Source: Methanomassiliicoccales archaeon
Lineage (GTDB): Archaea; Thermoplasmatota; Thermoplasmata; Methanomassiliicoccales; JACIVX01
DNA: 64,000 nt
NCBI GenBank assembly: GCA_029907465.1
Contig: JARYLV010000007.1
Span: forward strand, 1 to 64,000
Direction of reading: 5' to 3'
Position 1 is the stretch's first letter. Each line of letters starts with the position of its first letter. Shown piece after piece: positions 11,022 to 14,076 of this stretch. Below the pieces are notes generated by a model. The model was given only the letters and a program-made list of their open reading frames with translations, had not been told where the DNA came from and searched no databases. The translations under genes and the position numbers were made by a program.

Positions 11022-11028
11022 TTGACGT

Positions 11029-11466
11029 ATGAAAAAAAAAGGATCTTATTCATCAGGCCTCAAGCTGTGAGTTTCACTGAGACCGACCGCATGATTCTCG
11101 AGAAGCACTTCGAGGTGAAGGCGATCGATTTCGGATTTTTTGCGAAGAACCCCCTAAGTTTTCTTGGGAACATTTATCGAACGATCATAGGGGTAACCTG
11201 CGCGGACGGCGTATTCATTTGGTTTGCTGACTTCCACGTGTTATTGCCGATCATTCTTTCGAAATGTCAGTGGAGAAAAACGATTGTCGTCATTGGAGGA
11301 TACAAAGTAGCTAAAGTGCCAGAAATCGAGTACGGCGGGATGCCGAGTCGGAGGACACGGTGGATAAAGAGATAAGGGAACGATAGCGCGCCAGAGGGTC
11401 ATCGAGAAGTTCAGCATCGCTGAAAGGGAAAAGAAGCTCCTCGAGTTGATCAAGCGAGATCTTTGA
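11029..11466 (+). pseudogene. Relic of a GT4 glycosyltransferase (frameshift plus large internal deletion)
   Basis: After the ATG at 11029 comes a run of nine A. With ten A the frame would read MKKKRILFIRPQAV and continue into a typical GT4 N-terminus (FAKNPLSFLGNIYRTIIG, VFIWFADFHVLLP, KTIVVIGGYK). As it stands the ATG is out of frame. The donor-binding half is missing: the N-terminal frame stops at 11375, and only a GT4-like C-terminal helix (RVIEKFSIAEREKKLLELIK) remains at 11389-11466 in another frame. Roughly 200 or more codons are lost compared with the usual 350-400. A dead gene is the simplest reading. Confidence 0.75.
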
Positions 11467-11600: not shown

Positions 11601-12989
11601 TTAAAATATCAAAGCTGGTGGTACCATGAGCACGAGGAAGAGAGAGACTGCGAAAGCCGTCTTGAAAGTCTTGGCATCAGCTGAGATGAAGGGCATCATA
11701 AGGACAATCGGCTGAACGATCGCGAGGATGAAGAGCTGCACGCCGCCGATGAGAATGGTATTCGCCATCAGTGTCCCAACGCTCCTGATCGTCGTAACTG
11801 ACGCGAAATTCATGACGAAGAGGGATTCAACGGCGACGACGAAGACCACGACGATGATTGTGTATGATGCAATCTTCGCGATGATTGGCCTCTCGCTCAA
11901 TATGTCCGACGCGAAATTCCTCACCAGCCAGGCAATCAATGCGACGATGCCGAGGACTAGGAGTTGCGTGCCTGCTGTGTTGACAGTCGAAGCGGTGATC
12001 CCCCCGATGCTCTGCACGTTAGCTGGTGAAGCAAGCCCCATCACGAGCAACCCTTCCGACGCGATCGCAATCGATGCAACGATAGAGATAATCTCGGCAA
12101 ATCTTGTCCTCAACAGGTTCTCTTTGCTGAGTATCCAGAGCGAAGCGGAAAGGAGGCCGAGGGCGAAGAGCTGTGCGCCGCTCGCGACGACCGTCCTCTC
12201 AAGAATGCCGCCGATCCCATCGATCGTCATCCTGCCGCATTTTATTGCGAGGATGATTCCCTCGATGGCGATGATGATTGAAATAACGACTGAGAGGATG
12301 CGGACAGCCCGCTGTCCCGAGATCTTCCGCCCCTTGATCGCGATGGCCCCATCTTTTAGGGACCAGGCGCAGAGGAGGATGAGGGCGAGGACGAGTAATT
12401 GGATTCCAGCGTATGTGAACGTCGACTCCCTGATCCCGCCGATCCCCTCGATTGATGTCCTGCCGGCTATGCTGATGACGAAGAGCCCTTCTGCTGCGAG
12501 TGCCGTCGAGACGATAATCCCGAGGATCCTTGTAAGACCGATTGTCCTGAGCGGTGTGTCGGCGAAGCGCGATGTCAGCAAGCCGCCAACACCGAGTACA
12601 AAGAGCTGACAGCCAGCAGCGCCCACCCAAAACTTCCTGATCCCGCCGATCCCTTCCCATTGGACAGCACCGGCCATCGATGCGATCACGATCCCCTCGA
12701 CAGCGATGACCGTCGCGATGAGGAACGGGAGGATTGTGAAAAAAAGGGAGAGAAGTTCACGCCTCTTGCCCATCCCCCAGTCCCTTTTTCTCAACCAGAA
12801 TGAAACGATGAAGAGGAGGCCGAGGACGAAGAGCTGCAACCCGCCCAGGGAAACCGTTGTTTCCTTGATCCATCCGATCCCGTCAACCTTCATTGGAGCG
12901 GCGAGGTTCAGGAGGGCCAGACCTTCAATAATGATGATAATACCGATGATGATCGCGATCAGGTTGACAGCCCGTGGAATCTTCACCAA
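11601..12989 (-). CDS. Membrane protein built from six tandem repeats of unknown family
   Basis: A 462-residue integral membrane protein made almost entirely of six copies of a unit of about 70 residues. Each unit has a hydrophobic helix carrying an invariant Glu (IIEGLALL, AVEGIVIA, AAEGLFVI, AIEGIILA, ASEGLLVM, AVESLFVM). A short polar link with an IGGI-like turn follows, then a second helix with the motif GxQLxxLG/A. Twelve helices would result. Basic linkers (KRRE, KGRK) separate some units. Buried Glu residues in repeated helix pairs suggest ion or proton handling, but I recognise no named family. The gene is on the same strand as the DUF1616 gene upstream, about 100 bases away. Confidence 0.8.
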   Translation of the reverse strand: MVKIPRAVNLIAIIIGIIIIIEGLALLNLAAPMKVDGIGWIKETTVSLGGLQLFVLGLLFIVSFWLRKRDWGMGKRRELLSLFFTILPFLIATVIAVEGIVIASMAGAVQWEGIGGIRKFWVGAAGCQLFVLGVGGLLTSRFADTPLRTIGLTRILGIIVSTALAAEGLFVISIAGRTSIEGIGGIRESTFTYAGIQLLVLALILLCAWSLKDGAIAIKGRKISGQRAVRILSVVISIIIAIEGIILAIKCGRMTIDGIGGILERTVVASGAQLFALGLLSASLWILSKENLLRTRFAEIISIVASIAIASEGLLVMGLASPANVQSIGGITASTVNTAGTQLLVLGIVALIAWLVRNFASDILSERPIIAKIASYTIIVVVFVVAVESLFVMNFASVTTIRSVGTLMANTILIGGVQLFILAIVQPIVLMMPFISADAKTFKTAFAVSLFLVLMVPPALIF

Positions 12990-13092: not shown

Positions 13093-14076
13093 TCATTCCT
13101 CCACATTCATCGAAAGGTTGAGTGAGAGAATCCTGCCTTCGATTGCGTCAACAATCCTTGACCCCATGCCACTGTCCACATGGTCCTGATATTTGATGCC
13201 CTCGAAAGGTTGTTGATCTTTGAAAAGGAGGAACCACATCTTATATTGCCCTGGCATTTCGAGAGAGAAGTTGTAGCGGAGCTCCCACTGCGGCGTCCAG
13301 TTACCCTCGAGGTTGACTGGTGTGTGTGCGAGTGAGACAGAGAAGGAATCGAAGAAGTACATGTGGTTGACGACAGTTGTGTTGTTGACGAAGCTCGAGT
13401 CGACGAGCCAGATCTCGACGGCGTAGTTGACCTCGCGGTACTCATGATTCGCGATGCCGATGATGATCGTTGCGTTCTCTCCGACGGTCAAGTTCGTCGG
13501 ATAGTTGTGCGCCTTGCCATCTGGCCCCAATATATAGAACTCGGTGAACTTCTCCCCCTGCTTCGGCACAGCGATTACATAGACCAGAGCGATCAGACTT
13601 GCTGCGATCGAGATGACGAGGATGATGTTGAGAGCGCGGTCAATTTTCGTCCCTCCTTTGAGATTCTTTCTGACGTAGTGTACGACCGCTGGGAGCTGCA
13701 CTGGTAAGAAGGGCTCTTTAGCCCCCTTTCTCCGATAATAAGCGGTGAAGGAAAAGAGAATATTGAAGGCAGAGACGCTCGCGAGTATGGGATCGAGCCG
13801 GATGCCGAAGGGCGTATAGTTAAGGCCGAGGCCGATGAGCGGTGTGATGGCAATACTCAGTCCAAAGGAAAGGGCGACCCTCTCGACAAGATCGATGCTC
13901 TCCTTCTCAGGGAAAAGGGTTGCGATGAGTACATAACCTGGAAAGAAGAGGATGAAGGGGAGGCCTATGACAATCCTGAGGGGGTTGTCTGGCAGGAGGT
14001 AGACAATCGGGATAAGAATTCCTGTCAAAAGAACGATTGACGCGAGATCCCAGTGCCTTCTCAGTTCTTCCTTCAT
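13093..14076 (-). CDS. DUF1616-family membrane protein with external domain
   Basis: A 327-residue protein. Residues 10-105 carry four hydrophobic helices with the DUF1616 hallmark GLPFILFFPGYVLIATLFP and a following ERVALSFGLS. A fifth helix at about 150-172 (ILVISIAASLIALVYVIAV) leads to an external C-terminal domain of about 145 residues with several N-x-S/T sequons (NLT, NAT, NTT, NWT, NFS). This is the usual archaeal DUF1616 architecture; its function is unknown, although such proteins often lie near glycan or surface-layer genes. The sequons suggest that the outer domain is itself N-glycosylated. Confidence 0.85.
   Translation of the reverse strand: MKEELRRHWDLASIVLLTGILIPIVYLLPDNPLRIVIGLPFILFFPGYVLIATLFPEKESIDLVERVALSFGLSIAITPLIGLGLNYTPFGIRLDPILASVSAFNILFSFTAYYRRKGAKEPFLPVQLPAVVHYVRKNLKGGTKIDRALNIILVISIAASLIALVYVIAVPKQGEKFTEFYILGPDGKAHNYPTNLTVGENATIIIGIANHEYREVNYAVEIWLVDSSFVNNTTVVNHMYFFDSFSVSLAHTPVNLEGNWTPQWELRYNFSLEMPGQYKMWFLLFKDQQPFEGIKYQDHVDSGMGSRIVDAIEGRILSLNLSMNVEE

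Follow-up and report, generated by a model that had tools for sequence, protein, structure and literature searches.

Tandem four-helix modules with reciprocal Glu-Gln coupling in an undescribed membrane protein of Methanomassiliicoccales and their linkage to DUF1616

The window analysed here is a stretch of 64,000 nucleotides from a Methanomassiliicoccales archaeon (contig JARYLV010000007.1). It carries on one strand the gene of a repetitive membrane protein and, directly upstream of it, the gene of a DUF1616 protein. The features are the following, Glu and Gln being numbered by residue.

11601..12989, minus strand: gene of the tandem four-helix membrane protein, 462 aa with 13 predicted helices; stop codon at 11601-11603
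12549..12989, minus strand: module 1 (units 1 and 2, helices 1-4), from the unit alignment; coupled columns Glu22-Gln128 and Glu98-Gln52
12099..12548, minus strand: module 2 (units 3 and 4, helices 5-8), modelled alone; Glu167-Gln273 and Glu243-Gln197
11682..12098, minus strand: module 3 (units 5 and 6, helices 9-12), from the unit alignment; Glu312-Gln418 and Glu388-Gln342
11607..11675, minus strand: C-terminal 13th helix, with a conserved Pro and the end LVPPALIF; residues 439-461 in the model
13093..14076, minus strand: DUF1616 membrane protein, 327 aa (PF07760, E = 1.1e-84), 103 bases upstream

The open reading frame starts with TTG, a GTG three bases further on being equally likely. In five pairs of relatives dN/dS lies between 0.18 and 0.26, indicating that the gene is under purifying selection. 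A charge count that assumes an inside N-terminus gives 23 K+R on the inner and 10 on the outer side, an excess that places the N-terminus and the linkers between units inside the cell. The outer loops are short, with 12-13 residues of the IEGIGGI type. A preliminary description of the locus had reported a long antisense frame and put it down to the regularity of the repeats. The frame does exist (297 codons from stop to stop), but an equal or longer one arises in 28% of synonymous shuffles and 30% of codon-order shuffles. The repeats are hence not its cause, and we rejected it as a second gene because its length is within what shuffles yield. Beyond the stop codon of the repeat gene, positions 11022-11466 of the plus strand hold a short frame of 117 aa followed by an out-of-frame tail, IEKFSIAEREKKLLELIKRDL, which resemble the two termini of a glycosyltransferase-type gene that has decayed and lost its central part; this fragment had no match in Pfam.

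The six units of the protein align with a mean pairwise BLOSUM62 score of 1.60, against -0.43 +/- 0.07 in segment-wise shuffles (28 SD), which bears out the six units with E-G/S-L/I and G-x-Q-L motifs described previously. The Glu of units 1-6 stands at residues 22, 98, 167, 243, 312 and 388, followed by G or S and then L or I, and the Gln of G-x-Q-L at residues 52, 128, 197, 273, 342 and 418, that is, 30 residues further on in 6/6 units. The spacing between units alternates, however, as 76/69/76/69/76, and the self-correlation of the protein peaks at 145 residues, which makes two units the true period.

Relatives confirm this period. We collected 29 non-redundant open frames, 25 of them intact; the other four, set aside by inspection, are pieces of two split genes (L026 and L027) and L025, whose first unit is degenerate. 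Eleven of the intact relatives have four units, 13 have six and one has eight, giving 9, 13 or 17 helices, the extra C-terminal helix being common to all three forms in the alignments. The two units of a pair, A and B, also differ: column 35 is T in 51 A units and aromatic in 4, whereas in B units it is W, Y or F in 38 and T in 13 (p = 3e-13). The presence of only 4, 6 or 8 units, together with this A/B difference, indicates that the ancestral block is a four-helix A-B pair gained or lost whole; the 4-unit form of a same-family genome matches units 3-6 of the window protein at 42%. The gene thus encodes three four-helix pairs in tandem, followed by a 13th helix. Six units are present, as the six-fold repeat of the preliminary description had it, but they are not equivalent, and the spread of unit number that it had proposed to survey runs to 4, 6 or 8 within Methanomassiliicoccales. 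In L026 and L027, from two assemblies of family f6, a frame break splits a 4-unit gene in two, through either decay or assembly error.

The repeat gene was found in 27 of 61 genomes (the nearest 60 and its own) and, using a profile of the 4-unit forms, in 28 of 147 genomes of Methanomassiliicoccales; the latter search gave 29, from which a marginal match in G403 was not counted. It is absent from the two other genomes of the window genus. Class and phylum samples of other Thermoplasmatota yielded no clear full-length relative, with one marginal single-unit match (E = 2.6e-6) in the same-class genome G101. Phyla beyond Thermoplasmatota were covered by a one-pattern scan only, and a wider distribution is possible. 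Searches of virus and plasmid collections gave no match, the viral one being made with exact peptide patterns of the window protein, and hence there is no sign of a mobile element. Most relatives come from metagenome assemblies.

Neither single proteins nor profiles found a credible match in Pfam, NCBIfam, PHROGs, PADLOC or PDB sequences. Full-length AlphaFold modelling, with the window and the named-contig loci as alignment rows, gave 13 helices (pLDDT 70.9, pTM 0.71), and module 2 alone, with 26 module rows, gave four helices (pLDDT 84.9, pTM 0.80) with short strands in both outer loops. Foldseek found nothing with E < 0.001 for the full-length model, which is of moderate quality, in the PDB and viral structures (best PDB TM-score 0.24). 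For the module, LRRC8, sarcospan, connexin and Fc-epsilon RI beta were among the first matches, with E-values from about 0.04 upwards, none below 0.03, and with soluble four-helix proteins interspersed; the membrane part of LRRC8 reached a probability of 0.99-1.00 and a query TM-score of 0.59-0.62, and sarcospan was also high (top range 0.96-1.0). The modelled module may therefore resemble tetraspan bundles weakly. Like these proteins it has four helices and strands in the outer loops, but it shares no sequence relation with them and lacks a large outer domain, and its modules, unlike theirs, are fused in tandem, each being an A-B duplication with reciprocal Glu-Gln coupling. The large outer loop with a CCG motif that defines tetraspanins proper is absent, the loops here having 12-13 residues. 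These searches support a membrane protein of no known family, undescribed to date in Methanomassiliicoccales, and agree with the earlier remark that the unit suggested no known transporter family.

To assess whether the Glu and Gln residues are kept or lost together, sites were scored in classes, Glu (column 12) as E, Q or D and Gln (column 42) as Q, E or N; most coupled sites are literally E and Q. Between the partner hairpins of one module, both residues were present at 94 sites and both lost at 32, with Glu only at 4 and Gln only at none, a concordance of 126/130 sites (p = 2e-26). In contrast, Glu and Gln of the same unit were uncoupled (p = 0.82), as were those of adjacent units from different modules (p = 1.0), and distant units were nearly so (phi 0.1). 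Shared ancestry of the protein alone is hence an inadequate explanation, as it would couple these pairs too. The p-values assume independent sites, which is corrected in part by a thinned set and by a tree. In 31 modules thinned to <45% identity the same counts were 41/18/3/0 (p = 7e-13). On a quick tree of the C-terminal four units, parsimony reconstructed every Glu change on a branch shared with a Gln change, with nine joint losses, one joint regain and three Gln-only losses.

Among all column pairs of the module, APC-corrected mutual information ranked A12-B42 first (z 6.7) and A42-B12 second (z 6.3). With the reciprocal couplings as the two strongest column pairs, it is probable that two Glu-Gln contacts join the hairpins of each module, one between TM1 and TM4 and the other between TM3 and TM2. 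In the module model Glu is set back from the outer end by 8 residues in helix 1 and by 7 in helix 3, and Gln stands 9 residues after the outer start of both helix 2 and helix 4; this like depth makes a direct contact across the bundle plausible. The conservation moment on a helical wheel gave p = 0.06 for helix 1 and p = 0.01 for helix 2, the key residues lying off the main conserved face. Glu residues facing lipid without order, a possibility raised in the preliminary description, are unlikely given their coupling to the Gln of the partner hairpin.

Each relative retains 2 to 7 Glu-Gln sites, none of those examined falling below two. The six-Glu array is not conserved as a whole, since single sites drop out. 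Hydrophobic or small residue pairs, for example F/L, V/V or I/F, occupy the lost sites, as fits a bundle core, and Gln replaces Glu in 5/130 units. Genus g5 has a second, 4-unit paralogue (L044:1291-2220 and L045:1198-2157) in which Glu occurs in A hairpins only and Gln (or Glu) in B hairpins only, leaving one coupled site per module.

We then considered the neighbouring gene. A close DUF1616 orthologue (>200 bits) is present in 26/28 genomes with the repeat gene and in 9/119 without it (p = 4e-19). This co-occurrence is partly confounded by phylogeny, although it persists outside f2, a large family without the repeat gene: 26/28 carriers against 2/16 enumerated non-carriers (p = 1e-7). Where both genes lie on one contig, they are less than 15 kb apart in 19/20 genomes; G000, G003 and G045, which represent two families, have them side by side on one strand. 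DUF1616 is hence likely to be a functional partner of the repeat protein. Around the two genes, several families carry genes for CAAX protease, universal stress protein, glycosyltransferases, flippase and PAP2. A DUF1616 protein of Haloferax is N-glycosylated (PMC8241124), which places the DUF1616 domain outside the cell. In family f2, two DUF1616 proteins rich in N-x-S/T sequons (L110:5062-7023 and L111:4208-5764) have an outer domain repeated two or three times, and their genomes lack the repeat membrane protein.

The setting differs in two genera of family f3. In genus g5 the 6-unit gene lies 11-14 kb from DUF1616, in a run (L052:5354-10452 and syntenic g5 loci) of a corrinoid protein, an ArsR-type regulator, the 6-unit gene and a hydantoinase-A-like ASKHA protein, then URO-D-type methyltransferases, with a RACo-like activator near; this run may be an undescribed methyl-transfer cluster. 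In genus g13 the repeat gene stands beside DUF308 and URO-D genes, the DUF308 (HdeD-like) gene adjoining the 6-unit gene in two genomes (L059:5454-6122 and L061:9150-9719). A methyltransferase-cluster partner was rejected as a general role, since no genus other than g5 and g13, both of family f3, shows this setting.

The explanation that we favour, to which we give about an even chance, is that the protein consists of tandem four-helix modules held by Glu-Gln clasps and has a role in the envelope together with DUF1616, rather than being a transporter with one path. Duplication relates the two hairpins, A and B, that make up each module. The Glu of helix 1 would reach the Gln of helix 4, and the Glu of helix 3 the Gln of helix 2, at the same depth, the two side-chain contacts clasping the bundle with pseudo-twofold symmetry. 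Growth has proceeded by whole modules, two, three or four per chain, with one extra helix at the end. With less certainty, the role of the protein in the cell envelope may be to give structure or to interact with lipids, in concert with the DUF1616 surface protein encoded next to it; the small outer loops, with their IEGIGGI-type turns and short strands, would be the face turned towards DUF1616. Our results demonstrate the module architecture, the whole-module growth, the reciprocal coupling and the DUF1616 linkage. The coupling is nonetheless silent on the role of the contact, as a cation or proton site would give an equal pattern. In the tetraspanin CD81, a four-helix bundle, an intramembrane cavity with the polar residues Asn18 and Glu219 binds cholesterol (PMC7863897), and by analogy a lipid ligand is a third possibility for the Glu-Gln sites.

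The alternative that survives best, although we consider it on the unlikely side, is that protons or sodium ions bind at each Glu-Gln site, the protein being an ion-coupled carrier or channel of largely independent four-helix units. V/F-type ATPase rotor subunits are duplicated and fused in some archaea, with the Glu lost in some copies. The ATP-synt_C rotor (c/K subunit) likewise has two helices per unit, an intramembrane Glu and a Gln. In the Na+ ATPase of E. hirae, Glu139 and Gln110 of the rotor subunit NtpK hold Na+ within the membrane in a duplicated four-helix bundle (PMC2359735). Both NtpK ligands come from one hairpin, however, whereas in the repeat protein Glu lies in the first helix and the coupled Gln in the partner hairpin. 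In favour of this reading, at least two sites are kept in every protein examined, and the corrinoid/methyltransferase setting of the g5 gene would suit a permease and, with DUF1616 11-14 kb off, counts against the envelope role that we favour. On the other hand, many single sites are replaced by hydrophobic pairs in proteins that are retained, the Gln found in place of Glu in 5/130 units is unable to carry a proton alike, the helix number varies (9/13/17), and the models have no significant structural similarity to any transporter. A more specific form, in which each module holds two reciprocal cation or proton sites and the chain covalently joins up to seven or eight sites in an array that does not rotate, their number being tuned by module gain and site deletion, strikes us as doubtful.

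A conventional secondary transporter, with a single central path formed by all units and lined by Glu, is improbable. Thirteen helices and a regular intramembrane Glu would be in keeping with it, but the helix number shifts by whole modules in close relatives (4 against 6 units), coupling is confined to the module with none between modules, and the full-length model found no transporter, as its best PDB match shows. The shared ion path of six regular Glu suggested at the outset fares no better, with 4, 6 or 8 units and only 2 to 7 sites kept: a chain whose modules vary in number and whose sites are lost one at a time fits autonomous four-helix modules better than a pathway common to all, so that a single path lined by six Glu is unlikely.

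Kinship with HdeD (DUF308, PF03729) or the ATP synthase c subunit, diverged past sequence detection, was rejected and seems to us very improbable: both are built of two-helix units and a DUF308 gene adjoins the repeat gene in two g13 genomes, but profile comparison was no better than with control families (hhalign probability 0.6-0.7% for DUF308 and 0.1% for PF00137, against 0.0-3.8% for unrelated families), neither family appears among the Pfam matches of 21 members up to E 10, the DUF308 members examined have shorter units without intramembrane Glu/Gln motifs, and the genome of the window has no DUF308 match and an ordinary c subunit elsewhere (C9:54556-54735), and no ATPase genes were noted next to the repeat gene.

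The repeat gene thus represents an undescribed membrane protein family in an abundant order of methanogens, with a clean internal record of a four-helix block repeated two, three or four times. Its buried polar pair, whose two residues have gone or come back together on about ten branches, is a natural experiment on the intramembrane role of Glu and Gln, addressing whether such pairs serve a helix bundle as structural ties or as ion sites. It also offers a first way into DUF1616, a family of archaeal surface proteins whose function is unknown.
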